IMG/VR virus record: IMGVR_UViG_3300046656_000327
Span: 1 to 45,521 of that record
DNA length: 45,521 nucleotides
Direction: 5' to 3' (one strand)
DNA from: a virus
The position numbers were made by a program, and so were the translations under genes. Numbering within the stretch: position 1 is the first letter of the stretch; every line of letters starts with the position of its first letter. The notes beneath the pieces are model-generated. The model did not search any database. It had not been told where the DNA came from and saw only the letters and a list, made by a program, of their open reading frames with translations. Positions 1,797-45,511 of this stretch are shown in pieces.

Positions 1797-4700
1797 CGTC
1801 GTCATCCTCCATAAAGTCGTCACGGTCTCGGTAGAGTACCTCGCGACCACGGAGGTCCGCTCCAAATTTCTGCATGCGCTGCTCGGACTCGGCCGCGCCA
1901 GTGAGCGAGCGCAGCAGTGCCGATCGCGTGATGACCATCTCGGGATTCTTCTTGTTGAACTCCGCGACTTCGATCGCCACTTCACGGCGCGCTTCGGGCG
2001 TCTCGGCACGGCGGAACTTCTGTAGCAGACGATCCTTGTGTCCCCGGTCGTTCTCCTTGGCGTCGCGCACGGCGTTGCGGCGCACGTACGCGTCAGACAC
2101 GGATGACGGATTCAGTCCTACGTACTGCAGGAAGAGCTGCTGCGCCGACAGCTCCTTGGCATCGAGGAACGTCTTGCCCGTGGCATCGGTCATGCCCTCG
2201 TTCGAGAACCGGATCGCCTTAGAAATATCCTTCAGGAACTTCGGCTCGATCGCTTCGAACGCCTTCTGGTACTCACCATCCATCGCGTAGTTCGCGCCGC
2301 TGAATGCGCTCGCCGCGAGGCCCGTCGCCGGACCACCGAAGCTCTGCATGAGCGAGCCGAAGAAGCTGTTCGCGTTGTCGGTTTTCAGATCCACCATATA
2401 CAGCGTGCCGAGCGACATACGCTGCGACAAGTCCATGCCAGCGAGACGCGGTACGCCCGAGCTAACAACTTCTCCGAGCGTGTCGCCAAACAACTCGTTG
2501 GTCATCTCGCGGATCGATCGATCGAAGTCGAACGGCTCGTCGTCATCGCCGAACATGAACGCTGCGAGACCTACTGCCCACTTGATCGGCTGCAGCATGG
2601 CACCGATCACGCCGCCTGCGGCAAGGTGGGTGGCGAAGATTCCCGCCAGCGTCTTGCGTGCGATCTTGCGGCCCTCGGGCGAGTCGCCCATCGCGGCGCG
2701 CATGTTCGAGATCATCAGCGCGTACATGTGCTGCGGGTACTGCATGAACTGGAACACGAGCGGACCGAAGCTGCCGAGCGGACCCTGTGCTTGGAACAGT
2801 CGCGGCTTGTTGCCCGACGAGTAGTTGAACTGCGTGAGCGACGTGGCCTGCTTGGCGAAGTCGATCGAGCTTTCCGCCGTCGCACCTTTCGAGCGCGCGA
2901 TGTCGTACGACGCAATCGCCGTCATGATGCGGTTGTTCACTTCCGTCAGGTGCGCCATGATCCGGCTCGCATCGAGTACGTTCTGCGCAACGGATTGTTT
3001 GCCGCTAGCAACGTCGCGAAGTTCGGCGATGAAGCTCAGATCGATGATCGACTCGCGCTTCAGTTCCGTGAGCATCTTCAGGTACTCGGGCGCACGATCG
3101 CCGCCGCGCTTCCTGATCTGATCCTCCACCTGCTCCAGCACACTGAATGCTTTCTCAGCAGCCGTCTTGGAAGTCAGCGCCTTCAGGCCCGCCCACGAGT
3201 CCACCGCCTGCGTGACCAGCGGGGACAGGATGAGCTTCTGTGCGTTCGTGAGCGCAGACACTGCATCCCCGATCGACGAGCGCGCGGCGAGCCATGGCAA
3301 CGTCACCATGTACGGCTGCGTGGCGTTGATCATCCAGTACGACGGGCTCGTCAGCAGCATGAAGTGGGAAAGCTCGACGCCACCGCGCACGAGCTTCGAG
3401 ACTTCCTGAATGTTGTGCGTGAGCTTGTCGCGCGTGTTGATCTCGCGGACGACCTCGCCCATGCGCACACCGCTGATCTCGTTCTCGTCGCGATGCTTCG
3501 TGGCGACTTCCTGCATATCGCGCAGCGCGTCGGCCATCTGCCAGCCGTACCGAAGCTGTGACGTGTAGTACGCAGCCTGCTTGGCGTAGCTCGCGAAGGT
3601 CCGGTGCTGGGTCTCGAAGTCGACACCACGACGGTTCTTGCGGCTCAGCTCGTGCTTGCGGAAGGACTTGTCTGCCAGCATCTGTAGATAGAAGTTCTTG
3701 ATAGCCGCCTGCGCAGCCGGGTTCTGATCGAGCTTGCTGAGGATCGTCTTCAGGCCAGCGTTGGACTTGATAGTCGCTTCACTATTGAACAGGTCCGCCT
3801 TGAGCTGCACCGGAGAGGTTGCTGACTCGCCATACTTCGCGGCCATCTCATATCGGTTCGCTTCCGCCTCGGAGCGCGACTCTGCGGCGCGGAACTCCTT
3901 CTCCGACACCACTGCCATCCAGTCGCCGTTGTCGGCCTGACGGACTGCAATATCGAGCGTCGGGTCATTCGCGAGTAGATTGTCGCGGTACGCGCGGGCT
4001 GCGGCACGATCGGAGCCGAACGTCTTGCGCTCGCGCTCACGCTCGGAATACACGACGAAGTCGCCCCAGCGCATCAGTGGGAAGTACGGTCCCTTGCGTT
4101 GCTGCGGGATGTTGGAAATGCGGTGGATGTTCTTCAGGCCCGTCTTGTCGATGAGTCCGCCGAACTCCTCTTCCAGTCCTTCGATCGTGTTGAGTCGCAG
4201 TCCTTCCACGTCGCCTTCGGTGTAATCGAAGTCGTCGTCCGAGAGAGCGCGATCGGAGCCCTTGGTCAGGTAGCCACGCAACGCGTTGAGCGTCATGAGC
4301 GCGACTTCACGGCGCATCGTCGAGTCGTAGAACTCGGCTGCGTCTTCGAAGAGGTCCTGCATCGGCACCGGTAGTTTGTTCCAGCGCTTCGCCAGCTCCG
4401 CGTGCTTCGCCTTCGCCGCGTCGTTCTTGATGTGAGCGTTCTCGTCCTCGGACAGCGCAAGCTGCGGATGCAACTGGTGCATCGTCGCCTCGGTCATGAT
4501 CCGGGACATCTCCAGCGCGCCTTCCCGATCTTGCTCAGCCAGCTCCGTCCACTTGCGAGAAAGCTTATCCGCCCTTTCCATGTTGGCGGAGTTGTCGGCG
4601 TTGCGCTTGAAGAACGAACGCATGTAGTCAGCCATCGGGTTGTTAGACCCTGACTGGAAGTACCGCGAGTACGTATCACGCATCTGCTCCATCGACATTG

Positions 4701-7700
4701 CGGGGAGTAGTCCGCTTGTTGCTTTGTCTTTCGCTCGCTGCCAGAGACTCTTCCACGAGCTGCTGGTCTTGCCGTAACGGTCGAGCACGTTCGCCACTGC
4801 CCCGCGAACGCCCTCATCCTTGATGTCGAGATTCTTCACGTCGCGCCCGCCCTTCGTCGGGATGCGATCCTCGCCAGTGAAGAGAGCGTCGGTCAGCGAC
4901 ATCACCGCATCGAGCACGTTGTCGTGCGCGGGCGTGTCGGGCAGACCCATCACCTTCTTCACGAGCCCCATGATCCACTGCCACACGCTGAGCTTCGGTT
5001 CGATGAACGTGTTCCGCAGTTGCTGCTGGAATGCGCCATTCGAGAATGCTTCAGCGATGAACTCGTGCACGTCGTTATCACGGAACGCGTAGATGCCGTC
5101 CACGTTCACGCCGCGATTGCGCATCAGGCGGCGCGTCTGGTGCATGATCGCCGTGGCTGCGGTCTTCAGCGCCGGGTTGTTCTCGATCGCGCCGAGGGTC
5201 GCTGCGTGCGTGGCTTCGTGCGCCAATGCATGCATCAGGAGCATGTGCGGGTCTCGCCCCTGCTGGCGAAGCTGCTCAAGCTGCGGACGGTTCACGACGA
5301 TCGTGCGCACGTAGAAGTCTGTGCCCATCTTCTTGACGACGCGGTACTGCGCGAGGTTCTTGCCCGCGACCATGCCACTGCGGTCGAACGCCACCATCAC
5401 ATCGCGCATGCCCGGCACTTCGGCAAGGCGCTCGAATACGGCGCGGAACCTATTGTCATTAGGTAGCCCGTACGATGCCATCTGCAGCACGTCCCGCGCG
5501 TTGACTACGCTGCCCGGGTCTTCGAGCATGCTGGCGATCTGCTTCGCAGCTTCCTCCACTTGCTCGGTGTCCTGCGTCAGGTCGTCCACGACGAGGTTCA
5601 GGTTCTGCACGTCGCGACGTTCGAGCGCCTCTAACAACTTGCGCTGCTCGGGCGTCATGTCTTCACGGCGCAGCAACTCACGAATCTCGCGCTCGACTTC
5701 ACGGCGCGGCTGCACTTCACGGTGGATAGTCCGCTCGGCGCGATCGATCGAACTCGTCTCCTCGCGGCCCGCCTCGGAGTACGTAAGAAGAGGATAAGCT
5801 TCCTTCATCTCCTCGATCGCTTCGGACTTCGTCATGTCACGCTGTCGCAGGCGTGAGGCAATGGTGCGAGCCGTGCGCGTGTTGTCGCGGGCGAATCCCG
5901 GCGTCGTCAGCGACACCATGCCGATGCCCTGCGTCTTCGGGTTGAGACTTGCTAGGCCGAGATCGCGCAGCGTCTGCACGAACTCCTCCTCGGCACGGAT
6001 GATGTCCAGCGTCGAAGCGCTGTCCTTCATCTTGTTGTGTAGTGACAGAACCGCTTCGTGGTACGTCTTCATGCGGGCGAGCCGCTCGATCTCTGACGCG
6101 GTGAAGGGAACATCACGAGCCAGAGCTTCGCGCTCAAGGCGAATGCCACGGGCGAACGATTCGACTTCCTGCGCCCGCGTGGTCGACTCGCGCTCGTTGA
6201 ACCCTTCGAGCCCGCCCTTATCCGCCACGTCGCCGAAGCGGCTGCGCTTCAGCATCAGCTTGTCAGGCGTCTCCCACTGGAAGTCCTTGTCGAGCTTCAT
6301 CGTGGTGAGATCGACACCCAGCTCCTTGAAGAAGCGGTTCACCGGGTTGAAGTAGTTTTCGCGCGTGTCCTTGTTGCCGCGCCACAGACGCATGGCAAAC
6401 TGCACCGCGCGCATCTCCTGCAGCGTCGGCGTGTAGCTCATCGCACCACGCGTGGCGATCGAGTTCAGGAACTTCTGCATCAGCGGCGCGACGTGGTTCG
6501 TGTAGTAGCCGTTCTTGTGCGTCTGCCGGTACTCGATCTGCGCGATGCGACGCAGGCGCTCGGCCAGCCGCTCCGTCGACTTCGCAGTCATCTCGGCGCG
6601 CTTGTTAGGGAACACGAGGTCTTTCAGATGCACCGGGTCTGCCTTCGCCGCGCCGCGAGTCGACTCGCGCTCCTCGGCGAAGAACAGCTTGCTCATCTGC
6701 TCGGCGAACTCCTTGGGTTTGTATCCCTTGATCTTCGCGATCAGCTCGTTGAACTTCTCGACTTCCGCGATTGCGCCGTTCGACGCACGGTTGTTAGCCT
6801 TCTGCAGCGCGTTGCCGTATTCGGCGAGCACGCGCAGGTAGGCACGGCCGAGAAGCAGCTTGCGTGAATTCTCGGAGCGCGAGCCGTCGGGCTCACGTTC
6901 GGCTTCGAGGACGCTGAAGTCGCCTTTCGTGCTCTTCGTGATCAGCGAGTCGGCGGCGCTAATGGACTGCTCCAGTCCACGGAACGCCGTCTTGGCGCGA
7001 GCGGCCACCGTCTTCTTGTCGGCCTTCGATTGATCCTTCGGTGCGGACTCGACGCTCAGAACACGTGTGTCGAACACACTCTTGCGAACGGGGCGATCGG
7101 AGCCCTGCTTGTTCTCGGCGGTGCGCGTCAGATTCGCGCGCTTGAAGTCCTTGGCAGCGGGACCGTTGCGACGTGCACGCAGGAAGTTCTGCACGCGCTT
7201 CACGAGCTTGCGCTTCTCGCTCGGCGTCGGGTGCCGGGCCAGCACTTCCTCGTACGTCGACTGCGAGCGCTGACGGCCCGTGATGTATCGCGACGCTGCT
7301 GTGAACGCGAGGTTCAGTGTCGGCTCGTCGAGCACATCGATCTGCTCATCAGTCAGGTCCTCAACGTCCGGCTGCTCGGTGCTGATCGGCTTCGCCGTCG
7401 GTGCCTTGGCAGTGCGCGGCGTCATGCCAGCCTGTGGACCGCCGCGCTCCTCGGGATCGATGTGAGCGCGGCCGATCTTCGTAGTCTCCTCGGGCGACAT
7501 CTTCGTTGCGGTTCGCGCCACCTGCTCGGAACGAGTAGTTGGGTTCGCGATCTCGCGCATCGCCTTGAGCTGGTCGGCCAGCTCGTTCTGCCGTGCCCGC
7601 GCCTTGAGCTTCTCGCTCTCGGTTGCAGCCGTGTTGATGATCACCTGCTGGCCAGCGTGCTCCATGAACAGTTCACGGTACTGCTGCGCCTGCTTCGGGT

Positions 7701-10296
7701 TCGCGAACTCCAGCGACTCGGGCGCGTCGATGTCACCCCAACGGCTCTTGCGCTCCTTGAGGCGCTGACGACGGGCCAACATTGCTAGGTTGCGCGCGGC
7801 TTCGTTCTCCGACTGCGCACCCTTCACGGCGCTCTGTGCCGCCTCGTCGTCACCCAGCGTTTCCTCGATGACGGCTTCCGCAGCACGACCGACACGTTTC
7901 GTTTCGCGTCCCTGTTCGAGCTGGCGGTTCTCCTGACGCACGAGCTTGTCGCGGCGACGGATCGCCTGCGTCGAGCTAACAATGTGCGCGGTCTGCCCGG
8001 TCTCCGTCTCCCATTGATCGGCGGTCTGGTCCGCTTCCTCCTCGCTGCCAACGAGCGATTCCCGAACGACGTTTCCTTTTTCGTCGCGAAGCTGCACGGC
8101 GATGTTTCCGCCCTCGGGCTTGCCTGAGCCCGCGCCGGTCGCGTAGCCGAGAACCTCCTGCATGTTCCCAGCACCCTGCCCCAGCAGGTTGATCAGCTCC
8201 TCGGCGGTGGCTCGGTTCTTGGCAATGAGGACTCCGCCCTTGCCATCGAAGTTCGCGAGCGGTACACCGATTCCACGCACCTGCTCCAAAGCACCGTTGG
8301 CGCGCAGGTTCTGCAGGTTCGCCTCTGATAGATACACGCCCTTGCGGGTGCTGTCCGGATCGCTCAGCTCGTCGAGCTGGGCCATGAGATCGCCCACGGG
8401 CTCCGCGCTCGGCTGGTCCGGGGTCTGCTGCTGGCCCTGATCGAACAACCCCTGCTGCTCGGTGTCGGCGAACGTGGCCGGGTCCTGCAACTGCTGCATC
8501 AGCGGGGCGCGCTGGCGCAGGAAGTCGGCTCGCGTGCTGCCGCCCGCCATCTGGTTCCGCTGCGCTTCGGCGGCAGACTGCTGCTGTGCCGTGGGAGCGC
8601 CGCCAAAGCCCGCTGGCGGGGTCATGTCGTCGACCTGAGGCTGAGCCGCCATCGGCTGCAGTGGGACGCGTCCCACGCCACGTAGGCGCTCCTGAAGCAG
8701 AGGCTGCTGCTGCGGCGGACCCGAGGGCACGACGGCGGTGCCGGGCGTGGGATTCATCCCGCCGCCCTGAAGGTCCATCGGCTCGTTGCGAGCCCACACC
8801 TGCGACATGTCGGAGCCCGCTGCCCCGGCCATCGGGTCCGGCTGCTCTTGGAACATGTCGTCCATCACGCCGTCTTTCCGCGCGTTCATCGCGGCAGCGA
8901 CATCGGGATCGACGTGCCCGGCTACGAGCGCGTCCGACATATTTGACCGACGCTGCAGGGAAGCTTGCGGGTTCTGCACGTAGCGCTCGCGCGCCTGAAG
9001 CTGGTCGAGCGTCGACATGTTCTGCGACGGCGCGTTCGGGTCCGTGAACACATCGTCGAAGCTCGCCGTGGGCTGTGGCTGCTGCCCGCCCTCGCCGAAA
9101 ATTTCTGTAAACGATGCTGGCAACTCGGGCTCGCCGCCCATCGTGGGTTCGCCCGATGGCAATTGCCCCTCTTCTGGTGGCAATTGACGCATCGCGTTCG
9201 CACGGGGACCGACGGCAGCGTTCGTCACACCACCTGTCAAACCACCAACGGCGACGCCTTCGACGCCTGCTTCGAGCGCGCCTTCGTGGAGTTGGCGGCT
9301 CTGATCGTAGGTCTGCGCCGCGTAGTTCTGCGCCACCTGCTCGGCGGTCGACTGCGTACCTTCCTGCACAGCCTCGGAGCTGAAGCCACGACCGAACCGG
9401 CTAGCTACTCCACCGCCGACATCGACGAGCTTGGGTTCGAGGTAGCGGCCCGCACCGGCAGAGATCAACCCGACCACGAAGCCGCCGATCGCGGGGGCCG
9501 CGCCCTGCGCTTCGCCGATCAGCTTCTCTCGCGCCTGCTCGGGGCCGTACTGTTCCACGAGCTGCTGGTAACGCTGCGACTTCATCAGCTCCTCTTCGGG
9601 AGCCTGCTCGATTTCCTCGGCGACATTGTTAGCGATCGAGCCGACGCTGAGCGCGCCTTCCGATGCGCCGAGGTACGTGAGAGCACCCGAACGCATGCCC
9701 GCGCGCAGCATGAGTGTGCCGGGTAGTAACGTGGCAAGAGAGGAAGGAGCGGAGCCCGTGGCCTTGAGCATCAGGGAGCTGATGAACTCCTTGGCTCCAC
9801 CGCGCCAGATGGTGCGATCGGGATCGAGCGTCGTCCACTGCCGCGCCGATCGGTCGAGCGCCTCAGGCGTCATCGTCGACTCGATCTGTCGAGCGTAATC
9901 ATTCAGCGCGCGACGGGGCGCGGCGAGCGTATCAGCAGCCTTCGTGAAGGTCTGCTCGTACGGGGTCTGTCCCTCACCTGCGCCCTGTCGCGCGAGGTAT
10001 TCTGGAATGCCTGCGACGGTGCCTGCAAGCTGAACCGCGCCAGCGCCGAACTTCTTCGCGTAGTCGCTCCATGCGACTTCGTCGTCACCTTCGGGCGGTG
10101 CTTCCGGTGCGGACTGATTCAGCTCTTGATAGGCCGACATGAACGGGTTGTCGTCGGCGAGCCCGCCCGGCTCCGATAGATTGAGACCCATGCGCAACGC
10201 CGTGCGCGGCTGGGCCGGGCTCGGCGTCGTGTTGATAGGATCGTAGGCCGGAGCTGCACCGAACAACTCTGCGTATGCGTCTTCGAAACTCGGCAT
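1786..10296 (-). CDS. Giant 2836-aa virion/ejection polyprotein, PLxRFG-type with HExxH domain
   Basis: The largest gene in the window is a single unbroken frame. The N-terminus contains several short look-alike motifs (FEDAYAELFG, FMSAYQELN, FTEIFGEG, FDDVFTDP) in a disordered Gln/Pro-rich region to about residue 650. Long charged helical stretches follow. Around residue 1693 there is HALAHEATHAATLG, a zinc-peptidase-type HExxH motif, with an acidic HEFIAEAF segment about 65 residues on as a possible third ligand. Near residue 2500 a PLGSFGPLVFQF segment, then a hydrophobic helix and a DDDEPFDFDRSIRE motif, match the C-terminal part of PLxRFG-domain phage proteins. By position after the 414- and 648-aa genes it would be the largest ejected internal virion protein (the role of T7 gp16), which is inference. 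No lysozyme-like domain was seen. Confidence 0.75.
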   Translation of the reverse strand: MPSFEDAYAELFGAAPAYDPINTTPSPAQPRTALRMGLNLSEPGGLADDNPFMSAYQELNQSAPEAPPEGDDEVAWSDYAKKFGAGAVQLAGTVAGIPEYLARQGAGEGQTPYEQTFTKAADTLAAPRRALNDYARQIESTMTPEALDRSARQWTTLDPDRTIWRGGAKEFISSLMLKATGSAPSSLATLLPGTLMLRAGMRSGALTYLGASEGALSVGSIANNVAEEIEQAPEEELMKSQRYQQLVEQYGPEQAREKLIGEAQGAAPAIGGFVVGLISAGAGRYLEPKLVDVGGGVASRFGRGFSSEAVQEGTQSTAEQVAQNYAAQTYDQSRQLHEGALEAGVEGVAVGGLTGGVTNAAVGPRANAMRQLPPEEGQLPSGEPTMGGEPELPASFTEIFGEGGQQPQPTASFDDVFTDPNAPSQNMSTLDQLQARERYVQNPQASLQRRSNMSDALVAGHVDPDVAAAMNARKDGVMDDMFQEQPDPMAGAAGSDMSQVWARNEPMDLQGGGMNPTPGTAVVPSGPPQQQPLLQERLRGVGRVPLQPMAAQPQVDDMTPPAGFGGAPTAQQQSAAEAQRNQMAGGSTRADFLRQRAPLMQQLQDPATFADTEQQGLFDQGQQQTPDQPSAEPVGDLMAQLDELSDPDSTRKGVYLSEANLQNLRANGALEQVRGIGVPLANFDGKGGVLIAKNRATAEELINLLGQGAGNMQEVLGYATGAGSGKPEGGNIAVQLRDEKGNVVRESLVGSEEEADQTADQWETETGQTAHIVSSTQAIRRRDKLVRQENRQLEQGRETKRVGRAAEAVIEETLGDDEAAQSAVKGAQSENEAARNLAMLARRQRLKERKSRWGDIDAPESLEFANPKQAQQYRELFMEHAGQQVIINTAATESEKLKARARQNELADQLKAMREIANPTTRSEQVARTATKMSPEETTKIGRAHIDPEERGGPQAGMTPRTAKAPTAKPISTEQPDVEDLTDEQIDVLDEPTLNLAFTAASRYITGRQRSQSTYEEVLARHPTPSEKRKLVKRVQNFLRARRNGPAAKDFKRANLTRTAENKQGSDRPVRKSVFDTRVLSVESAPKDQSKADKKTVAARAKTAFRGLEQSISAADSLITKSTKGDFSVLEAEREPDGSRSENSRKLLLGRAYLRVLAEYGNALQKANNRASNGAIAEVEKFNELIAKIKGYKPKEFAEQMSKLFFAEERESTRGAAKADPVHLKDLVFPNKRAEMTAKSTERLAERLRRIAQIEYRQTHKNGYYTNHVAPLMQKFLNSIATRGAMSYTPTLQEMRAVQFAMRLWRGNKDTRENYFNPVNRFFKELGVDLTTMKLDKDFQWETPDKLMLKRSRFGDVADKGGLEGFNERESTTRAQEVESFARGIRLEREALARDVPFTASEIERLARMKTYHEAVLSLHNKMKDSASTLDIIRAEEEFVQTLRDLGLASLNPKTQGIGMVSLTTPGFARDNTRTARTIASRLRQRDMTKSEAIEEMKEAYPLLTYSEAGREETSSIDRAERTIHREVQPRREVEREIRELLRREDMTPEQRKLLEALERRDVQNLNLVVDDLTQDTEQVEEAAKQIASMLEDPGSVVNARDVLQMASYGLPNDNRFRAVFERLAEVPGMRDVMVAFDRSGMVAGKNLAQYRVVKKMGTDFYVRTIVVNRPQLEQLRQQGRDPHMLLMHALAHEATHAATLGAIENNPALKTAATAIMHQTRRLMRNRGVNVDGIYAFRDNDVHEFIAEAFSNGAFQQQLRNTFIEPKLSVWQWIMGLVKKVMGLPDTPAHDNVLDAVMSLTDALFTGEDRIPTKGGRDVKNLDIKDEGVRGAVANVLDRYGKTSSSWKSLWQRAKDKATSGLLPAMSMEQMRDTYSRYFQSGSNNPMADYMRSFFKRNADNSANMERADKLSRKWTELAEQDREGALEMSRIMTEATMHQLHPQLALSEDENAHIKNDAAKAKHAELAKRWNKLPVPMQDLFEDAAEFYDSTMRREVALMTLNALRGYLTKGSDRALSDDDFDYTEGDVEGLRLNTIEGLEEEFGGLIDKTGLKNIHRISNIPQQRKGPYFPLMRWGDFVVYSERERERKTFGSDRAAARAYRDNLLANDPTLDIAVRQADNGDWMAVVSEKEFRAAESRSEAEANRYEMAAKYGESATSPVQLKADLFNSEATIKSNAGLKTILSKLDQNPAAQAAIKNFYLQMLADKSFRKHELSRKNRRGVDFETQHRTFASYAKQAAYYTSQLRYGWQMADALRDMQEVATKHRDENEISGVRMGEVVREINTRDKLTHNIQEVSKLVRGGVELSHFMLLTSPSYWMINATQPYMVTLPWLAARSSIGDAVSALTNAQKLILSPLVTQAVDSWAGLKALTSKTAAEKAFSVLEQVEDQIRKRGGDRAPEYLKMLTELKRESIIDLSFIAELRDVASGKQSVAQNVLDASRIMAHLTEVNNRIMTAIASYDIARSKGATAESSIDFAKQATSLTQFNYSSGNKPRLFQAQGPLGSFGPLVFQFMQYPQHMYALMISNMRAAMGDSPEGRKIARKTLAGIFATHLAAGGVIGAMLQPIKWAVGLAAFMFGDDDEPFDFDRSIREMTNELFGDTLGEVVSSGVPRLAGMDLSQRMSLGTLYMVDLKTDNANSFFGSLMQSFGGPATGLAASAFSGANYAMDGEYQKAFEAIEPKFLKDISKAIRFSNEGMTDATGKTFLDAKELSAQQLFLQYVGLNPSSVSDAYVRRNAVRDAKENDRGHKDRLLQKFRRAETPEARREVAIEVAEFNKKNPEMVITRSALLRSLTGAAESEQRMQKFGADLRGREVLYRDRDDFMEDDDDED

Positions 10297-19891: not shown

Positions 19892-21024
19892 TCAAAAACC
19901 TGAGCCACCGTGAGATCGCCGGTAGCCAGAATGTCTTCGACGCCGGTCGCACGAATCTCGATGCGCCAGACTCCGGTTCGCGGCGTATCGTCGAACACCC
20001 CGATATAACTCCAGCCGCGTTCCACGTCCATGATCAGCCACTCATCGATGTTGTCTCCAGACATCGGAGCGTCGCCAGAGAGCACGGTGAGTCGAATCTC
20101 GTAGTTGCCGGGCGCGAGTGTCTCCGTACTCCCCTGCCACCATTCGTTCTCAATGAACGTGCCGTAGTTACGGAACGACATCGGGTCTCCGCCCGGATCG
20201 AGCGAATCACTATCTACTTCGAAGAAGTACCCATTGCCACCGCCACCGACCCATAGCTGGCCGAGTGGAGCGAAGTCGCCGTTGCCGAACGAGATATTGA
20301 GCAGTGGCTCCTGTGAGCCCGAACCGTTCGCGCCACCCGAGTTGATCGTGTGATTCCCGAAGTTGAGGATCGCCGGGGTTGGCACGCCGCTCCCGATGGG
20401 GCCGATGGCGATGAGCAGGAACAGCCCGTCAGCAGGATTTCCTTCGTGGGTAGTTAGCTGGATGAACGTGGCAGTCTGTGACATTGCCTGAACAGAGGCG
20501 ATAAGTCCCGGCGTGCCAGTAGTCGCAACGACAATGGGAGTGTCAGAGAAATAGTTCTCGACGAACTCGATCATATAGAACCCGGGCGTGCCGCAGTCCC
20601 ATGAGATGTTGGCGATGCCAGCGTTCGGTGCACCGCCCAAGAAACCGGTTGCCTCAATCTGCCCGCGCGCAGTGATCTCGGTTGGGGTGTACCCACCGCC
20701 GCCGCCACTCTCTTCGAGATGCTCCATCGTCCCGGCAGTATTGCGATGAGCAACGATCACACCAGCCGCCCACGCGATAGCCGTCGTGTTCTCCTGCCCG
20801 CGCTCAACTGTCAGTACACCATCGGCGCGAGCCGTGCAGTTGCAGACTTCACGGACACCGGTAGTTGGGTCTTCGATCGTGACCTTGAAGATTTCGTCCA
20901 CAGCAGGTGAGGGGAAGTCTTCGAAGTGATCGGCAATCTGCAACGCCACGGTGTCCTCGGCAAGGTCACTCGCGAGCGTCGTGCGCGCGTCATTGGCGTA
21001 CAGATGTGTGCGGGAATCAGCCAT
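19888..21024 (-). CDS. Tail fibre/spike-like protein sharing N-terminal domain with next gene
   Basis: The 378-aa product has an N-terminal domain of about 95 residues (ANDARTTLASDLAEDTVALQ..., VDEIFKVTIEDPTTGVREV, LTVERGQENTTAIAW) that clearly matches the start of the collar-domain protein encoded at 21026-22123. A glycine stretch (SGGGGGYTP) links it to an unrelated, strand-rich C-terminal region with a second glycine-rich part (NSGGANGSGSQ, WVGGGGNGYFF). The shared N-terminus is best read as the virion attachment module, with the distal part binding receptor or glycan. The last 80 residues (TETLAPGNYEIRLTVLSG onward) look like a small beta-sandwich. It could be a second receptor-binding protein. 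Confidence 0.65.
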   Translation of the reverse strand: MADSRTHLYANDARTTLASDLAEDTVALQIADHFEDFPSPAVDEIFKVTIEDPTTGVREVCNCTARADGVLTVERGQENTTAIAWAAGVIVAHRNTAGTMEHLEESGGGGGYTPTEITARGQIEATGFLGGAPNAGIANISWDCGTPGFYMIEFVENYFSDTPIVVATTGTPGLIASVQAMSQTATFIQLTTHEGNPADGLFLLIAIGPIGSGVPTPAILNFGNHTINSGGANGSGSQEPLLNISFGNGDFAPLGQLWVGGGGNGYFFEVDSDSLDPGGDPMSFRNYGTFIENEWWQGSTETLAPGNYEIRLTVLSGDAPMSGDNIDEWLIMDVERGWSYIGVFDDTPRTGVWRIEIRATGVEDILATGDLTVAQVFE

Positions 21025-21025
21025 G

Positions 21026-22123
21026 TCACACCACCAGCGGAATCTTCATGACGTAGTAGAGCATCTTGTAAGGCGGGATCGTCGCCACCGCACCGAGCGT
21101 GTGGTTGTGATCCGTAACCGCCGAGATGGAGTGCGCGTGCGCCGCGCCGCCTACCTGACCAGTCTCCTCGATCAGATCATTACCACCGACGGTCTCCTGC
21201 CGATACGCATAGGTGTTGGAGTCAGCGTTGCCTGCCACACCGCGCGCAGGGCCGATGCCGCTGTTGCCGAAGTTCTCCATCTGGCCGGGGCCGTTTGAGC
21301 CCGCCTCCCACACGTACAGCCTGTGTGAGTGCAGCGGGATGTTAGTTTCATCCAGCGTGGTCTCGCCCGTCGAGCCACCGTGATCGTGCGCGCCAGCCGC
21401 TCCGATCGAGGGAGTTGCGCTCGCTGCGCCGCCGGTGCCGCCGATGTCACCGTTGACGGTGGCACCACGAACAAACAACCCGCGAAGGTCGGGAGTGCCG
21501 TTGCTGCCGTTGCAGATCGCCCATCCCGCAGGAAGGTCACCCGAGACGCCATACCACATCGTGATCATGCCATTCGGGATCGCGAGCGCCGCGACGTTAT
21601 CACCGGTCACGAGGATCGTCGCTCCACCAGCGGTGGCACGCGTGCCGTCGTTGGGGACCAGAACCTCGTTAGACGCGTCATCGACCGTGCCACGCATGGC
21701 GACGCCGACAAGCTGACCACCGGTCATCGTCGAGTCTTGGATGTCCGCGTTCTGTAGCTCGTTGCCATCCATGTCGAGATCGCCGGACATGGAGTCGCCA
21801 CCGCGACGGATGAATTCCTCCATGATGACCCGGGTCAGGCGTGCATCCACGCGCGTGAGCCCACCGGTCCACGACTGCGCGCTGGTGCCGTCCTGCCCGC
21901 GTCCGCCTGTCGGCACCGTGAGTAGATCGGTCGAGCGCTCCGTGATCTTCACGATCTCGCGGTCGCCATTCGAGTTCACGAGCGTGACGTAGAAATACTC
22001 ATCCACGCCGGGGTTTGGATAGAGCGTGCCGTATCCGTTCGCGACCTGAATGGTCAGATCGGTGTCGGAGATGCTGGCAGCCAGCAACGCCGTAGCGTTG
22101 TTAGCGAACAGTAGATTGGGCAT
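21026..22123 (-). CDS. Tail fibre protein with phage tail-collar domain
   Basis: The start overlaps the previous stop as TAATG. The first 90 residues are the shared attachment domain. A RGGDSMSGDLDMDGNEL element near 108-122 is a common fibre motif. At about 183-222 comes the signature of the phage tail collar domain: IPNGMITMWYG, LPAGWAICNGSNGTPDLRGLFVRG. The His-rich end (HDHGG, HAHSISAVTDHNH, then PPYKMLYYVMKI) is typical for collar proteins whose trimers bind metal ions along the shaft. It is a receptor-binding or fibre-tip component of the virion. Confidence 0.85.
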   Translation of the reverse strand: MPNLLFANNATALLAASISDTDLTIQVANGYGTLYPNPGVDEYFYVTLVNSNGDREIVKITERSTDLLTVPTGGRGQDGTSAQSWTGGLTRVDARLTRVIMEEFIRRGGDSMSGDLDMDGNELQNADIQDSTMTGGQLVGVAMRGTVDDASNEVLVPNDGTRATAGGATILVTGDNVAALAIPNGMITMWYGVSGDLPAGWAICNGSNGTPDLRGLFVRGATVNGDIGGTGGAASATPSIGAAGAHDHGGSTGETTLDETNIPLHSHRLYVWEAGSNGPGQMENFGNSGIGPARGVAGNADSNTYAYRQETVGGNDLIEETGQVGGAAHAHSISAVTDHNHTLGAVATIPPYKMLYYVMKIPLVV

Positions 22124-22419
22124 TACTCATCCTCCTCAACGTCGAATTCCACGGTGTCCTGCTTGATTTGACTTCCGTTGGTCGTGATCGTGAACTCGAT
22201 CAGATAGGTCTGTCCGTCCTCACCGCCTTGGGCGAAGTATGCGAAAATCTTTCCTGCGGGATCGATCACGATGTCGTCGACCACGAACGGTGTACCCGTC
22301 GCCGGACTGACCTCCGCAGTCACATCCGTGATCAGCTCCCCGCCTTCGAGGAAGTCCGTGTAGTCGAAGCCCTTCTTGCGGCGTTCACCCGGCTGTTGCC
22401 GGTAGCGACCGAGCATCAT
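22123..22419 (-). CDS. Fibre-tail adaptor-like protein
   Basis: This 98-aa acidic protein has a basic start (MMLGRYRQQPGERRKKG), then FDYTDFLEGGELITDVTAEVS and a series of short strands ending in a run of acidic residues. Small proteins with the D-x-x-x-F/W-L-x-x-G-E-x-I-x-x pattern are often annotated as phage fibre-tail adaptors. Its place between adaptor-like genes and the two fibre genes agrees. The start overlaps the upstream stop by ATGA. Confidence 0.55.
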   Translation of the reverse strand: MMLGRYRQQPGERRKKGFDYTDFLEGGELITDVTAEVSPATGTPFVVDDIVIDPAGKIFAYFAQGGEDGQTYLIEFTITTNGSQIKQDTVEFDVEEDE

Positions 22420-22667
22420 GGTTTCACCTGTCTGCTAACTGGTACGAGTAGCTCACTTCTCCCGGGTCTCGGGAAAGGCGCTTCTGTCACACCGGAAAAC
22501 TGCTCCTTGATTCGCAGCCTGCCACCGATGTATGAATCGAAAACTTCCGAGTCCGCGGTGGGAGTGATTGTTAGGACCCCCATACCACCGAACCCGTTGT
22601 ACGTCGAGACGTTGAATCCCACGACGTTGAACGCGTCATCAAACAATGTGAGGACTGGCCCGCTCAT
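22416..22667 (-). CDS. Hypothetical 83-aa virion-type protein
   Basis: It is translationally coupled on both sides (ATGA overlaps). The sequence is strand-rich (VLTLFDDAFNVVGFNVSTYN, GVLTITPTADSEVF) with no charged helix or membrane segment. I do not recognise a family. The strict overlap with structural neighbours suggests a minor tail component. Confidence 0.6.
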   Translation of the reverse strand: MSGPVLTLFDDAFNVVGFNVSTYNGFGGMGVLTITPTADSEVFDSYIGGRLRIKEQFSGVTEAPFPRPGRSELLVPVSRQVKP

Positions 22668-23074
22668 AGACGGAAGAACCCTCCACCTTCCACGTTCGGA
22701 TAGATGAAGTAGTCGAGTCCCAGCGGCTTGAATCGCTGCGTCACCAAGTCTTCCTCACCTAGATAGGCCACGAGCACCGAAGTGTTCTCAATGCCACTAT
22801 CCTTGAAGATCAGTGCCTGTGTGATGAACCGACTGTCAAACAGGAACGGGAACTTCGCGTGGGTGCCAGAACACACTCCATCGGTCGCGGTGCGCCCATT
22901 GATCTCTTCGCTGATCGCAATCCGAACACCTGCTGAGATATCACTCAGGAACTGCGCATCGAAGTCCGGCACGAAGCTCTCGGGCAGGAACATCGCCCGG
23001 TAGACACCGGTCGTCCAGTCGAGCTGCGCCGTCGCGAAGAGTTCGCGTGCGTAGTTGAATAGGCGGCTCTGCAC
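22664..23074 (-). CDS. Hypothetical 136-aa tail/head-completion protein
   Basis: GTG start at 23074, four bases after the upstream stop. The protein opens with a helix (MQSRLFNYARELFATA), then DWTTGVYRAMFLPESFVPD, a LSDISAGVRIAISEE element and strand-rich sequence ending YPNVEGGGFFRL. Proteins of this size with a DW-x-x-x-x-Y-x-A-x-F-x-P pattern are common among podovirus and siphovirus head-tail genes of unknown function. Context places it with the adaptor set. Confidence 0.6.
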   Translation of the reverse strand: MQSRLFNYARELFATAQLDWTTGVYRAMFLPESFVPDFDAQFLSDISAGVRIAISEEINGRTATDGVCSGTHAKFPFLFDSRFITQALIFKDSGIENTSVLVAYLGEEDLVTQRFKPLGLDYFIYPNVEGGGFFRL

Positions 23075-25203: not shown

Positions 25204-26286
25204 TCACCCGCTGACTCGACCTTCATTCGCTGCCGCCACCATCAGCCGCTCTTCAGCGACCAACGCATCGGGGACCTTCCGTCCCTTGATGACGTACTGG
25301 TTCTTGCGGTGCACGAACTCATCGATCTCAGCGCGGGTGTAAATCCGCTTCTGAGCCTCATTCGGAGCGCCTGCCGGTCCGGTCTTCGGTGTACCCGGTG
25401 CCACTAACCTCTCCAGAACCGGTGTTGCCGAAGCGGGCGGCGCGAGTTGCGCGGCAGGCTGCGGAGCCGGAGCTGGCGGAGTGACGGCTGCGTTTTCGTT
25501 CTGAAAGCCCTTGAATAGCGCCGCGACACGCGGTCCATCGAGACGCTCTGCAGCCTGATCAAGCAATTCCTGTCGACGACGACCAGTGTACGGGTCCTCG
25601 ATGGTGAGCCACGCGATGAAGTCTTGGTTCGCGTCTTGCTCTTGCCATCCCGGAACGTGCTGATCGAGGTACGCATGGAACTTCTGCTGATCCGACAGCT
25701 CGACCTTCTTGTCGAGCCGCTGGACTGTCTGAACCACTTGCTCGATTCGCTGAGCCGTCTGCGGACTTCCCTGCGAGATCATCGGCGAGACCGTCTGACG
25801 ACAGACACGCTGAATGAAATCGAACAGGTCCGGTCCGAACGACTTGATCTCGGCATCGTTGACCAGCGCTCCCGGAGCGGCAGGTGCACCGCTTGGGGAG
25901 GCAGCAGGGGCAGATTCCCTGCGCTGAACAACAGCCGACATCATCCCCTGCGTGGCCGTGATCTGGCTCTGCAGAGTGCGAATCATATCTCCTTGACTGC
26001 GTGACTCCTGCTGCAAGCGCGGCACTTCCGCGTTGTACTTGCCCTGAAGCACACGATACTTCTTTTCCCATGACTCATCCGGTGGCGCTGCGCCAGCGGG
26101 AGTCACGATGGGTGCAGCAGGCGGCGCGGGCTGTTGGCCTGCGACGGGCGGAGCCGGTGGCGGCGGAGCAGCGTTCGGGTCCGGAGGCGGGGGCGCTTCG
26201 CCCTCGTTCCGCGCCTTCACGAGCGCATCCGCAATCTTGTTAGCCTCGGCGATCTGCCGTTGTACTGCTTTCGGGAGAGCACTCAT
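25204..26286 (-). CDS. Capsid scaffold protein
   Basis: The ATG at 26286 follows an AGGAG site; an upstream in-frame ATG has none, so the product is 360 aa. A basic, helical start (LPKAVQRQIAEANKIADAL) leads into a Pro/Ala-rich linker at about 30-70, then a coiled coil (KYRVLQGKYNAEVPRLQQESRSQGDMIRTLQSQ). Another Pro/Ala linker follows. The C-terminal 60 residues are basic (RIYTRAEIDEFVHRKNQYVIKGRK), as expected for the part that binds coat protein. Composition, length and position just upstream of the coat gene all fit a scaffold that is lost before DNA packaging. Confidence 0.8.
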   Translation of the reverse strand: MSALPKAVQRQIAEANKIADALVKARNEGEAPPPPDPNAAPPPPAPPVAGQQPAPPAAPIVTPAGAAPPDESWEKKYRVLQGKYNAEVPRLQQESRSQGDMIRTLQSQITATQGMMSAVVQRRESAPAASPSGAPAAPGALVNDAEIKSFGPDLFDFIQRVCRQTVSPMISQGSPQTAQRIEQVVQTVQRLDKKVELSDQQKFHAYLDQHVPGWQEQDANQDFIAWLTIEDPYTGRRRQELLDQAAERLDGPRVAALFKGFQNENAAVTPPAPAPQPAAQLAPPASATPVLERLVAPGTPKTGPAGAPNEAQKRIYTRAEIDEFVHRKNQYVIKGRKVPDALVAEERLMVAAANEGRVSG

Positions 26287-27276: not shown

Positions 27277-29400
27277 TCATCCTCCTGCGCGCATACCGGG
27301 TCGACCGGTCGCATTGTTAGACGCTGCTCCTTCGACCTCTTCGCGCGCAGCCTCGGGGCCAGCGCGTTGATCCTTCGGACGCTCCTGTTGATTCGCGCCC
27401 GGTGCTCCCTGTCCCGCCGCCTGCTGCTGTTGGAGCTGCATGGCTTGCTGCTGTTGCATCTGTGCCTGCACTTCCGCCGCGTCGGGCACAACCTTCTCGT
27501 GTTCGAGCCCGAGGTTCTGTGAGACGCTGCGCAGGATGGTCGCGCGGCCGGGCACACCGATGATCGCCTGATCGATCGGGTTGGCAGTGATCTGCAGGAA
27601 TTCGAGCTGACGCATCCGATCCTGCTCGCGCTTCACTGCGTAGTTCACGCCCTTCACGTTGATGTTCTCGTCGCCACGGAAAACGCCGGGCTGGGTGAGC
27701 ATCACCATGTCGTACAGCTCGTTCAGCAGCGGCTTGTAGACATCGCGGTCGATCGACGCGGCGATGTTCTGCAGCGTCTTCGCGGCGTTGCCCATCAGCA
27801 TTGCAAGGCCCGATGCGGTGCGGCCAGCGCCACCCACCTTCTCGTTGCCCATCATGTAACGAGGAATCGCCGAGACTTCATCGCCCATCTGCGTGAAGCG
27901 CTCGAACACGCCTAACAACTCCTGCGCGTTCGAAGTTGGCTGGAAGAAGTCGAACGGCTTGGACGTGCCGGTGACCATCGGGTCCCACGATCCATGCCAC
28001 CGCTTCCACGGGTACATGTCGTCGGTCTCGCCCGGCGCGAGCACCTGATCGTTGATCACGACCTGCGGTCCGCTGGCGATCGAGAGATTGTTGACGAGTG
28101 CACGCGCGGTCGCATTGCCGATCGACTGGATGTCCTCCAGCAGGTCGGGCAGGCCGTAACCCATCATCGTGCCCGGCACTTTCTCGAAGTTCGAGATGTA
28201 GTAGATCGGGCGCTGGCGCGGCGTCGGGTTGAGCTGCACCTTGATGATGAAGCGGTCGATCATCCACGCAGTGACTTTGTATTCCTGCAGCGAGTCAGTG
28301 ACTTCGTTGGGGTCCATGCCCCAATCGAGCAACGTCGAGCCCTGCACGCTGCCGTGATACTCGGCGGTGTCGATGAGCCCGCTCGCCGTGCGCGGCCAGC
28401 GTTCGCGATCTTCGAGCCTCGCGCGCTCCATGTCCGTGACATCCCACCAGTCGCGCAGGCCGATCTCATTGAAGCGAGTCAGCACCTGATCGATTGCGCC
28501 GCTGTCGTAGCCGGGCAGGCCGCGCACCGACTGCAAGTCGTCGCGGGTGAGTCGAATGCGCTCGATGAACTCGGACTGGTAGGGATTGGCCGAGCCCGGC
28601 GACCAGTACAAGTCGAAGGGGGACACGCGATACCAGAACATCTTCGGAACCTGTTCCATCGTCGCCTTGCCGTCCGGCCCCCACTTGAGCTGCGGCGCGC
28701 GGCGGACGACGGGTCCCTTGATGCAGGCGAACGGGAAGATCGGCAGGTCGATGAGGAATTCAGCGAACGCGTCGTAGAAGTCGCCTTCGACTAACAAGTC
28801 GTCCATCTTCTCGGTGGCACGAGCTGCGTCATCCACGGCCTGCTTCTTCGAAGCGCGCTCGGCTGCCGTACGCAGCATCGCGACGCGATCCGAGATCATC
28901 TGCGGGTCGATGGGCTGGCCGGACTGCTGCAGCGTCGCGATCTCGATTGAGACAAGCTGCTGGATAGTTTTCTCAACGTCGTTGGGAACAGTCGGCGACG
29001 GAGTGGGCTCGATCGCCCATGGACGCTCCGAGCCGAGGTACACGTCACGCAGGAGGGCTGTCGCTCCTCGACACTTCGTGGCGGTGATGCGGGCATACAC
29101 TTCGCTGCCCTGAAACTTCCTGATCTCCATGATCTTCGCCGGGTCGTACTGTCCCTTGTACGTGCGAAGCGCATCGATCAATCGAGTGGCGATGCCTTCC
29201 GTGTTTCGGAAGTTGCGCATCTCGGTCATCCGCTTGTGGATGTGAGACGCCAGCATTGATAGCTCGGGCTGGGAAGATAGTTGATCTACTTCTCGCCGCG
29301 ACGCTTCCTCCTGTTGCATCATCTGCTGATTGCTGACGACGCGTAGGAGACCATGCCGTGAAGGAACGGCTCCAGAAACTGGTAGGGCGCTCGATTGCAT
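27277..29400 (-). CDS. Portal protein
   Basis: The ATG at 29400 gives 707 aa, usual for podovirus portals; the frame extends 17 codons further, but a GGCGGGGTCC site favours 29400. The sequence has the expected mix: an N-terminal helical part, a middle strand region (FPFACIKGPVVRRAPQLKWG, WYRVSPFDLYWSPGS), the wing and stem (MMGYGLPDLLEDIQSIGNATARALVNNLSIASGPQ, SAIPRYMMGNEKVGGAGRTASGLAMLMGNA), and a Gln-rich C-terminal barrel-type helix (QMQQQQAMQLQQQQA). The GRTASGL element is a good portal hallmark. It is the first gene of the leftward late operon and divergent from the terminase genes. Confidence 0.88.
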   Translation of the reverse strand: MQSSALPVSGAVPSRHGLLRVVSNQQMMQQEEASRREVDQLSSQPELSMLASHIHKRMTEMRNFRNTEGIATRLIDALRTYKGQYDPAKIMEIRKFQGSEVYARITATKCRGATALLRDVYLGSERPWAIEPTPSPTVPNDVEKTIQQLVSIEIATLQQSGQPIDPQMISDRVAMLRTAAERASKKQAVDDAARATEKMDDLLVEGDFYDAFAEFLIDLPIFPFACIKGPVVRRAPQLKWGPDGKATMEQVPKMFWYRVSPFDLYWSPGSANPYQSEFIERIRLTRDDLQSVRGLPGYDSGAIDQVLTRFNEIGLRDWWDVTDMERARLEDRERWPRTASGLIDTAEYHGSVQGSTLLDWGMDPNEVTDSLQEYKVTAWMIDRFIIKVQLNPTPRQRPIYYISNFEKVPGTMMGYGLPDLLEDIQSIGNATARALVNNLSIASGPQVVINDQVLAPGETDDMYPWKRWHGSWDPMVTGTSKPFDFFQPTSNAQELLGVFERFTQMGDEVSAIPRYMMGNEKVGGAGRTASGLAMLMGNAAKTLQNIAASIDRDVYKPLLNELYDMVMLTQPGVFRGDENINVKGVNYAVKREQDRMRQLEFLQITANPIDQAIIGVPGRATILRSVSQNLGLEHEKVVPDAAEVQAQMQQQQAMQLQQQQAAGQGAPGANQQERPKDQRAGPEAAREEVEGAASNNATGRPGMRAGG

Positions 29401-38009: not shown

Positions 38010-38251
38010 GGGTCAATCGTGGCCCCTTTTCCCGGGAAGGTCAACCGTTTCATTTTTCGGCGCAGCTTGGTGGAACCCTTCGACTCGAAGACCGCGAGAC
38101 GGCTCTTCAATTTCGCGACCTCATTCCTACGTGAATTCTCACGCATGCGGCGGGTCACCAGTTCCACGAGCGCGCTGTGAAGATGGCTGAGCTGCGGCAC
38201 GTGCGCGCACTCGTCGATCAGCTCACGGAGCTTACGATGGGTTATTGGCAT
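38006..38251 (-). CDS. Hypothetical 81-aa basic protein
   Basis: Short helical protein (MPITHRKLRELIDECAHVPQLSHLHSALVELVTRRMRENSRRNEVAKLKSRL) with a basic C-terminus (KGSTKLRRKMKRLTFPGKG). It overlaps its downstream neighbour by four bases and the upstream one by 20. No ribosome-binding site is convincing. It may be a small DNA-associated protein; this is only composition-based. Confidence 0.55.
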   Translation of the reverse strand: MPITHRKLRELIDECAHVPQLSHLHSALVELVTRRMRENSRRNEVAKLKSRLAVFESKGSTKLRRKMKRLTFPGKGATIDP

Positions 38252-38492
38252 ATCCGTTGTACGTCCGCTTCTCGCCTAGCAATCTTCGGGCGTCATCCAT
38301 GGAGATGAAGAATCCGAGCGATCTACACCGCACCTGCAGGCAACAGGCTGACCGATTGCGTACGTACCAGTTCCGCTGCATCCGCGCATTCTTCTCGGGG
38401 TTGTTCCGCCGCCAGCGCGCAACCTGCGCGGTCTTCGCTGGGCAACTACGGGCCTTCGTCTTCACGGGGATATCTCCGATGGTGCCATTCAC
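38232..38492 (-). CDS. Small basic protein, possibly HNH-related
   Basis: GTG start at 38492. The 86-aa product has a VARWRRNNPEKNARMQRNWYVRNRSACC stretch. The 'W-(R/K)-x-x-N-P-E-K-x-x-x' element is common in the helix before the catalytic part of HNH nucleases, but the H-N-H residues are missing. It could be a remnant or a different small DNA-binding protein. The C-terminus contains a short fold-like region (DDARRLLGEKRTYNGY). Overlaps of 20 and 47 bp with its neighbours are unusually long. Confidence 0.45.
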   Translation of the reverse strand: MNGTIGDIPVKTKARSCPAKTAQVARWRRNNPEKNARMQRNWYVRNRSACCLQVRCRSLGFFISMDDARRLLGEKRTYNGYANNPS

Positions 38493-38893: not shown

Positions 38894-39214
38894 TTATCTC
38901 TTGAATCCTTTGTTGTCAAACGGACCACCTTTTTTCCCGGTCGGGTCCCACTCAACGTACGAGTCGGTGTCGAATGCCATGATGTTGTGCCGCGCGTAAA
39001 AGCCCGTTCGCAATGCGCGCATCCGCAGGAGATCGTGGTCGACGACGCGGAAGAGGAGGTCCGTGAGTTCGTTGTAGTACTTGCCTGCGCGCAGGTCTTG
39101 CCCCTGCCCGACTTGAAGCGAGTTGCGGCTCGTGACCGGGGGCTTCCCGAACTGGAGTTCCGCGAGGACATAAATCTCCTCGTCCGTGTAGTTAGGCTTG
39201 GCGGGTTCGGTCAT
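38894..39214 (-). CDS. Hypothetical 106-aa protein
   Basis: The ATG overlaps the preceding MazG-like gene stop (ATGA). The product has the acidic helix NYTDEEIYVLAELQFGKPP at the start. A helix-strand stretch follows (AGKYYNELTDLLFRVVDHDLLRMRALRTGFYARHNIM), and the C-terminus is a glycine/lysine-rich tail. It may fold as a small alpha-beta domain. No family recognised; the close coupling suggests use together with the MazG-like enzyme. Confidence 0.6.
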   Translation of the reverse strand: MTEPAKPNYTDEEIYVLAELQFGKPPVTSRNSLQVGQGQDLRAGKYYNELTDLLFRVVDHDLLRMRALRTGFYARHNIMAFDTDSYVEWDPTGKKGGPFDNKGFKR

Positions 39215-39630
39215 CGCTCATCCATCTTCCGAATGAGCGGCGGGATCAGGTCCTCGTCGAGCTGCTGTGGGAGCGGCGATCCTCGCGGCTTCCCTGCCTG
39301 CTTCGCCCTGATCTGCTCGATCTTCGTCCACACGCGCGCCAGCTCCAGATGCCCGAGCGCGTCCATGCTGATGCCGTGCGCGCCGCACAACGCAGCCAGC
39401 GTGACCATGACGCCGCCTGTCTCCTGCTTCACTTCGCCGGTCGGCCGTCCATACACGTAGTCGACGAGCATCAGGACTTCCTCGCGCGAGACTCCCGTGG
39501 CCTGAACGAGTTCGAGTGATTCCTCGATGAAGCGGTGACTGCGTTCGCGCTTGTCGGCGGAAATTTCCTGCCCGAAGCACTCCATCATCCACTCCACCAC
39601 ACCTGCTTGAAACGGGATCGGGTCAGACAT
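39211..39630 (-). CDS. MazG-like nucleotide pyrophosphohydrolase
   Basis: The 139-aa product contains the helical metal-binding motif RFIEESLELVQA (E-E-x-x-E type) and, about 35 residues later, RPTGEVKQETGGVMVTLAALC, which supplies the second acidic pair of the alpha-NTP-pyrophosphohydrolase fold. Before these comes WMMECFGQEISADKRERSHRF and after them ELARVWTKIEQIRAKQ, the usual layout of this phage and proteobacterial family. MazG-type enzymes cleave NTPs or alarmones to the monophosphate and can blunt host starvation signalling during infection. Which nucleotide this one uses is unknown. Confidence 0.8.
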   Translation of the reverse strand: MSDPIPFQAGVVEWMMECFGQEISADKRERSHRFIEESLELVQATGVSREEVLMLVDYVYGRPTGEVKQETGGVMVTLAALCGAHGISMDALGHLELARVWTKIEQIRAKQAGKPRGSPLPQQLDEDLIPPLIRKMDER

Positions 39631-40000: not shown

Positions 40001-40003
40001 CTT

Positions 40004-41286: not shown

Positions 41287-41306
41287 CCTCCGCGTGCTGT
41301 GAACTG

Positions 41307-42132: not shown

Positions 42133-42142
42133 TTCCTAACAG

Positions 42143-42240: not shown

Positions 42241-42246
42241 AGTAAT
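42230..42246. promoter_or_regulatory. Palindromic operator-like site, copy 3
   Basis: GTTACTCACTGAGTAAT carries the same 15-bp palindrome core with C instead of G at the centre. It overlaps the right end of the 98-nt inverted repeat and lies 34 bp before the ATG at 42280, so it is placed to control that gene. Confidence 0.78.
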
Positions 42247-42279
42247 GCACAATCAAGCCCATCAAACAGGAGATATCCA

Positions 42280-42951: not shown

Positions 42952-42968
42952 GCACAAGGGGTAGATAG

Positions 42969-43106: not shown

Positions 43107-43290
43107 AGAAGCAGAGGCGATGCTGAAGCGCATCGACAAGCCAGCCACGGAGGAGGAGATCATCGCGTTCAAGGAATACCTGAAGACCGATGTCGGCGCT
43201 ATCCAGACCGCGCTCTTCCATCACTGGCTGCCCGTCAACAAGGCATTGATCATGGACATGCAGAAGCGTGGCCTGATGAGTAACAACTAA
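43096..43290 (+). CDS. Hypothetical 64-aa protein
   Basis: A GGGAG sequence lies before the ATG. The product (MTPEEAEAMLKRIDKPATEEEIIAFKEYLKTDVGAIQTALFHHWLPVNKALIMDMQ) is a small helical, acidic protein. It starts 26 bp after palindrome copy 4. No family recognised. Confidence 0.6.
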   Translation: MTPEEAEAMLKRIDKPATEEEIIAFKEYLKTDVGAIQTALFHHWLPVNKALIMDMQKRGLMSNN

Positions 43291-43304
43291 CAAGGAGCAC
43301 GACG

Positions 43305-43733
43305 ATGAGTGGATCAATCAGACTGCACCCCGAGCATGGGGTGAACCCAACCGTATCCGTATGTTTCTTCTGCTCGAAGGACAAGAACGAGCTAGCGTTG
43401 CTAGGCGCTGCATACAAAGGACAAGCCCCGCACCGCATGGTGCTGAACTACGAGCCCTGCGAGGAATGTCAGGGGCACATGGCGAAGGGCATCACGTTAC
43501 TCGAATGCACGGCGAACCCCAACACGCCGAACCAACCTTCGATACAGAAGGCGCGCGATGTCTACCCCACCGGTAGATGGGCCGTTATCACCGAAGACGC
43601 GGCACGACGCATGCTGTCCAACGAGGACGGCAGCACCAACGAGATGCTCGAAGCCACGCTGAAGTATCGCAAGGCGTTCGTCGAGCCGGGCATCATACCC
43701 ATGGAGGCACCGGGCAGTGACACACCACAATGA
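43305..43733 (+). CDS. Zinc-ribbon-like protein (142 aa)
   Basis: The ATG follows AAGGAGCACGACG. CFFC at residues 20-23 and CEEC near 51-54 form two C-x-x-C pairs that could hold a zinc ion; the surrounding SVCFFCSKDKNELALLGAAYKGQAPHRMVLNYEPCEECQGHMAKGITLLEC is a compact domain. The C-terminal part is strand and helix (RWAVITEDAARRMLSNED, EMLEATLKYRKAF). Similar zinc-ribbon proteins occur in phages and plasmids without known function. It overlaps the next gene by 17 bp. Confidence 0.65.
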   Translation: MSGSIRLHPEHGVNPTVSVCFFCSKDKNELALLGAAYKGQAPHRMVLNYEPCEECQGHMAKGITLLECTANPNTPNQPSIQKARDVYPTGRWAVITEDAARRMLSNEDGSTNEMLEATLKYRKAFVEPGIIPMEAPGSDTPQ

Positions 43734-44139
43734 CGAGCGCACGGGCGATGCCCGATGGGCGAAGATGGCCGCTGATTATCGAGCAGCACTGGAGAACAAG
43801 GACCATCTACTTGTCACCCGCAAGACCGTCGTACGCCGCGCGCTCGTCATCCGATGGAAGGACTTCATGGGTACGTCGGTCTCCTATCGGGATATCGCGT
43901 ATCGCGGGCAGGTCCACGACGTACTAACTAACAAGCTGTACGGCGTCGAGAATACGGTGCGCGTGTGGGTGGTTAGAGATGCTGATGGCACCGTTGAGCA
44001 CGCACGTTGGGAACGGTACATCATGGCGAAGGCGCATCGCGATGGCCGCATGTACCACTACGCCAAGTACATCATGACCGAGGGAGATGCCCAATGGATG
44101 AAGGAAATCAGCGGCGGGTTATCTACCCGCAAGAGTTAG
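43717..44139 (+). CDS. Hypothetical 140-aa protein
   Basis: GTG start with GGAGG ten bases upstream. The product contains a helical start (DARWAKMAADYRAALENKDHLL), then strand-rich sequence (RALVIRWKDFMG, YRDIAYRGQVHDVLTNKLYGVENTVRVWVVRDADGTVEHARWERYIMAK). It ends in a polar tail. It belongs to the rightward run of short genes and may be distantly related to the later GPY-type small proteins through its strand-turn-strand centre. Function unknown. Confidence 0.6.
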   Translation: MTHHNDERTGDARWAKMAADYRAALENKDHLLVTRKTVVRRALVIRWKDFMGTSVSYRDIAYRGQVHDVLTNKLYGVENTVRVWVVRDADGTVEHARWERYIMAKAHRDGRMYHYAKYIMTEGDAQWMKEISGGLSTRKS

Positions 44140-44153
44140 ACAAATGGCATTAA

Positions 44154-45087: not shown

Positions 45088-45089
45088 CC

Positions 45090-45308: not shown

Positions 45309-45511
45309 ACTTCAATGGCAGGACGAAGGACCCGATCGAGTGGGTGAGCAACGCACCGAAGCTCGACTTCAGCGATGGACCTTACGTGGTGGTGCATGCA
45401 CACATGAGCATGTGGCCCGATCGCGAGGAACTCAATCGTCGAATGGTGTTATCACACGTTGTTAGGAACAAGCGAGGAGACAACCTTATCGAGAGTAGCG
45501 AGTATTGCTAA
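45305..45511 (+). CDS. GPY-motif small protein (68 aa)
   Basis: The ATG overlaps the previous stop. The product contains LDFSDGPYVVVHAHMSMWPDREELNRRMVLSHVVRNKRGDNL, sharing D-G-P-Y and R-N-K-R-G with the preceding gene. It lacks the W-x-M-L-K end and stops at the very end of the window. It is the last visible member of the right-end family. Confidence 0.6.
   Translation: MNFNGRTKDPIEWVSNAPKLDFSDGPYVVVHAHMSMWPDREELNRRMVLSHVVRNKRGDNLIESSEYC

Follow-up and report, generated by a model that had tools for sequence, protein, structure and literature searches.

Words that are selected for their density in a genome, and not for their positions, are rare, and Chi, the DNA uptake words and KOPS have each led to a DNA-processing machine. 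In HIP1 and the uptake words a short word is in excess throughout the genome without being tied to particular positions, and both are features of host genomes. Chi is over-represented in phages that have no recombinase of their own (PMC3784561). For most Proteobacteria no Chi-like word is known (PMC8022716), and the Chi word of Caulobacter AddAB, GCGGTGGT, is GC-rich (PMC5443536). The stoperators of the cluster A mycobacteriophages are asymmetric, repressor-bound sites of 13 bp, tens of which are spread over the phage genome. They keep a single orientation relative to transcription (PMC6550527). The nick sites of T5, the phiKMV-like phages and tf are short dispersed words, and phiKMV and tf are themselves podophages. 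Such localised nick sites lie on a single strand (PMC3517423).

Here we describe a word, TTGTTAG, that is scattered over a whole podophage genome at about one copy per kb, roughly 15 times what would be expected by chance. Like HIP1 and the uptake words it is a genome-wide excess without fixed positions, but it belongs to a phage lineage, is non-palindromic, and has no such excess in the bacterial genomes searched. It shares with the stoperators their number and asymmetry; on the other hand, its core is only 6–7 bp, it occurs in both orientations (16 sense and 20 antisense copies in the coding DNA of the window), and it is not the operator motif, the probable operators being separate dyads. 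In contrast to the nick sites it is carried about equally by both strands (18 copies on the plus and 25 on the minus strand), and there are about three times as many copies as the 14 of tf. There is a real, if somewhat less than even, chance that TTGTTAG stands for a new class of density-selected, orientation-free podophage words, possibly an AT-rich, Chi-like signal of a host recombination enzyme or a signal specific to the phage and without known counterpart.

The phage and its relatives

The window, by which we mean the entire stretch of 45,521 bases that was analysed, is a virus record that holds a partial podophage genome of 60% GC. PHROG matches include the portal, terminase, major head protein, internal virion protein, tail fibres and a giant DarB-like protein. 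Among isolated phages, Rhizobium phage RHph_TM27A (portal 51%) is the closest. Set against the 64 kb genome G012 (IMGVR_UViG_3300048086_000013), the closest relative found, the window seems to lack about 19 kb of early genes. Relatives were sampled as loci from about 100 contigs related through their capsid, portal or internal virion proteins, and for about 37 of these relatives the whole contig was checked for TTGTTAG.

Excess and turnover of the word

An exact string search finds 43 copies of TTGTTAG/CTAACAA, the number that a preliminary description had reached by eye, and most of the example positions listed there match within a few bases (Table 1). Base composition predicts 2.6 copies, close to the three first estimated, and Markov models of orders 1–3 predict 0.7–3.4; orders 4 and 5 give 12 and 39, but these are not independent, having been trained on the word itself. 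When synonymous codons were shuffled over the whole window, with the proteins kept and the intergenic copies left in place, 7.6 copies were expected. Within coding DNA alone there are 36 copies against 1.9–2.3 expected (O/E 19), the coding fractions being approximate, as the genes were called with a simple ORF picker. Among all 7-mers of the window, TTGTTAG is the top outlier in the codon-shuffle tests. The four combinations of frame and orientation that give no in-frame stop hold 8, 8, 17 and 3 copies, against 0.1, 0.1, 1.8 and 0.1 expected. Since all four are enriched, codon use does not explain the excess, as had been argued from the two orientations and the several frames.

Table 1. Positions of the word, its second form and associated features in the window
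Feature	Position	Strand	Basis or remark
TTGTTAG/CTAACAA, dispersed, 43 copies	2462–45514	both	exact search; mean spacing about 1 kb
TTGCTAG, second form, 11 copies	3001–43404		3.5 expected
Example copy in giant DarB-like ORF (1786–10296)	4640–4646	+	ORF and PHROG match
Copy at the same aligned position in G012	26237–26243	+	codon-level alignment
Second positionally shared copy, portal gene	28791–28797	-	codon-level alignment with G012
Copy directly followed by TTGTTAC	43287–43293	-	opens a denser stretch
Inverted repeat TCACACGTTGTTAG...CTAACAACGTGTGA with two TTGTTAG copies	45452–45521		ends exactly at the contig end

The preliminary description had looked to related phages for a check, and the closest of them provides it. 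G012 has 71 copies in its 64 kb, of which 54 are in coding DNA against about 4 expected from codon shuffles (O/E 13). Among the relatives sampled, the excess is common only to these two genomes. Almost all the others show no more than the background, with zero copies in the close relatives G001, G006 and G021. A few short contigs have 2–4 copies in 5–6 kb and are too small to judge; among the short ones G010 and G011, with 4 and 3 copies in 6 kb, are AT-rich as well. No word of comparable strength was found in the other members of the clade, and the unrelated phages reached via a lysin-like gene and via the gene at 39211–39630 do not share the excess. A literature search for TTGTTAG with phage found no paper. 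Codon-level alignment with G012 places only 2 of 23 alignable sites of the window at the same position, so that density has been kept while position has not. We conclude that the excess of TTGTTAG is real and strong, that it is specific to the lineage and that its density is maintained, and the turnover between the two genomes shows how fast such words come and go.

Form and spacing

Enrichment centres on the hexamer TGTTAG, with 56 copies, 47 of them in coding DNA against 5.8 expected from codon shuffles. Two weaker forms are also enriched in the window: TTGCTAG (9 coding copies against 1.1 expected), which had been named as a second form with about nine copies and in fact has eleven, and TAGATAG (11 copies; 6 coding against 0.4). 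TTAG had been said to be nearly always preceded by G, and 79 of its 96 occurrences are indeed GTTAG. The third G and the final G of the word are nearly invariant, and the flanks of the TTGTTAG sites carry almost no information. A bipartite word with a spaced partner was considered and dropped, since 111 pooled sites show no partner motif at a fixed distance.

The core is more evenly spaced than expected by chance. The gaps between TGTTAG copies have a coefficient of variation of 0.71 (P about 0.006) in the window and of 0.77 (P about 0.003) in G012, with about 1.0 for comparison. Of the control hexamers of similar abundance, 0.7% of the 291 from the window and none of the 111 from G012 reach this evenness. 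For the full heptamer the evenness is weaker (P 0.3 in the window and 0.03–0.05 in G012). There are about 0.6–0.9 copies of TGTTAG per kb on each strand, and no gap exceeds 2.5 kb. The even spacing is that of both strands taken together. Orientation is nearly free: a polarity tied to the replicating strand was considered and set aside, being weak in G012 (P 0.03) and not clear in the window.

What reads the word?

Of the meanings first proposed for TTGTTAG, that of a site bound by a protein of DNA metabolism is the one left standing, given its enrichment in all allowed frames and on both strands, its uniform distribution and its turnover between sister genomes, but confidence in any one mechanism is modest. 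Tentatively, and with a chance clearly below even, we read the heptamer and its core as a recognition word selected for its density, with Chi as the closest precedent. A sequence-specific DNA-processing protein would read the word, and the lineage would have been selected for many copies wherever they fit; we infer that this factor must meet a site within about 1 kb or so of any point. The reader could be a host end-processing nuclease of the RecBCD/AddAB type, in which case degradation of phage DNA ends would stop at the word and recombination between phage copies would be promoted. If this is true, a phage with a roughly 15-fold excess of the word would give direct access to the enzyme.

As a positive control, Chi (GCTGGTGG) of P1, an example of a phage with neither a RecBCD inhibitor nor a recombinase, was run through the same pipeline. 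P1 has 50 copies (0.53 per kb; 31 on the plus and 19 on the minus strand), of which 44 (88%) are in coding DNA, with a coding O/E of 7.8. The two cases are alike in that a short word is strongly in excess in coding DNA, occurs on both strands and is dispersed over the whole genome. TTGTTAG, however, is in stronger excess, denser (0.9–1.1 per kb) and more evenly spaced, the P1 sites being clustered (coefficient of variation 1.5). It shares with Chi words their over-representation, coding DNA included, but not their composition, since known Chi words are GC-rich and TTGTTAG is AT-rich. Neither the known Chi words nor the nick words show an excess in the window or in G012. The ratio of TTGTTAG to its reversed control is at most about 1.5 in 398 Pseudomonadota genomes, compared to 6–9 in the two phages, a comparison that excludes a phage-scale excess in this sample but is blind to a Chi-sized, twofold one; in three outlier genomes that were sampled TTGTTAG was not enriched. 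No enrichment shared with a host, as in the case of Chi, was seen in these genomes. The weak polarity of the word, and the existence of relatives with near-identical replication genes and no comparable word, also count against a Chi-like reading.

The restriction of the word to the window and G012 would suit a reader encoded by the phages themselves: a DNA-binding protein of the sub-lineage, nucleoid-like or related to packaging or replication, with the relatives lacking either the protein or its specificity. This is possible but doubtful. The graded forms, with TTGTTAG above TTGCTAG and TAGATAG, resemble a binding matrix, and a few small genes are found only in these two genomes, such as that at 43717–44139 in the window, whose product has a pI of 9.7 and is 34% identical to that of 38093–38470 in G012. 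However, no DNA-binding family was detected among the scanned genes that only these two share, and most early G012 genes of known function are also present in relatives that do not have the word.

It is unlikely that the copies are lagging-strand priming sites for a phage or host primase, which would need the word every 1–2 kb or so on each strand. Their presence on both strands, the even joint spacing and the absence of gaps above 2.5 kb would suit such sites, and G012 has a primase-like gene (20069–23032). On the other hand, this gene is also present in relatives without the word, the spacing is not clearly even on the individual strands, and known primases use about three bases. The gene product (L114 69–3032) is a DUF927 protein whose N-terminus looks by eye like an AEP primase; the syntenic large gene of RHph_TM27A is annotated as a putative integrase, which seems doubtful.

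Equally improbable is that a host nucleoid protein or silencer binds the word, with the phage gaining from being coated. An AT-rich word at uniform density in a 60% GC genome, accompanied by graded forms, is what such a protein might favour, but these proteins usually read DNA shape or AT content and not one strict word, and here the third and final G are nearly invariant.

Probable operators and avoided words

The window has five 15 bp dyads, TTACTCA-S-TGAGTAA, at 40660, 41308, 42231, 43055 and 45073 (the last with one mismatch), which are probably repressor operators. The corresponding dyad of G012 is TCACACA-N-TGTGTGA, and the same 7-1-7 layout with differing sequences is seen in several clade members, which suggests different immunity types. 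G006 has 11 dyads TTGCTAG-S-CTAGCAA, and their half-site, one base away from TTGTTAG, is what makes repressor operators or stoperators worth considering as the function of the word. We regard this as most unlikely, and the resemblance as probably a coincidence. TTGTTAG forms no 7-1-7 dyad in the window or in G012, and a reading as operator half-sites was dropped, since both genomes have separate dyads; moreover, the copies are uniformly spread in coding DNA, occur in either orientation and are not conserved in position.

CCWGG is absent from the window, where 129 sites are expected, and from the close relatives examined, while some other relatives do have it. Among other palindromes, RGATCY (1 site against 46 expected), GCCGGC (0 against 26), GGCGCC (0 against 27) and CCGCGG (1 against 28) are scarce in the window, and RHph_TM27A is also without GANTC. 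The TTAG contexts other than GTTAG (ATTAG, CTTAG and TTTAG) are depleted in the window, and likewise in G001 (28 against about 69) and G006 (14 against 60). It had been proposed that the excess may be the trace of restriction avoidance acting on other TAG words, which is not supported, since G001 and G006 avoid these words in the same way and have no excess of TTGTTAG. An origin of the excess in the avoidance of other words, in codon use or in a mutation bias is altogether improbable: the clade does avoid CCWGG and other words strongly, but relatives avoid the same words without the excess, the coding count is about 15-fold above codon shuffles, and none of the words one base away is scarce enough to have supplied it by mutation. 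The word may still be a modification site, as was also proposed at first, but modification alone makes no excess, and the graded related forms are unlike a strict enzyme site; no cognate methyltransferase was found among the genes scanned, the window being partial and many genes having no assignment. Taken together, the features of the word speak against a role as operator, stoperator, strand-specific nick site or promoter, and against codon bias or restriction avoidance as its cause.

Local features

Eight copies of the word lie in the denser stretch between 43287 and 45514. The inverted repeat at the end of the contig has 17-nt arms that are 94% complementary, and may be a terminator or mark an assembly break. 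The small protein encoded at 39211–39630 matches PHROG 14118 and 8593, to which no function is assigned, and has close relatives in phages of Pseudomonas, Burkholderia, Acidovorax, Caulobacter and Xanthomonas.
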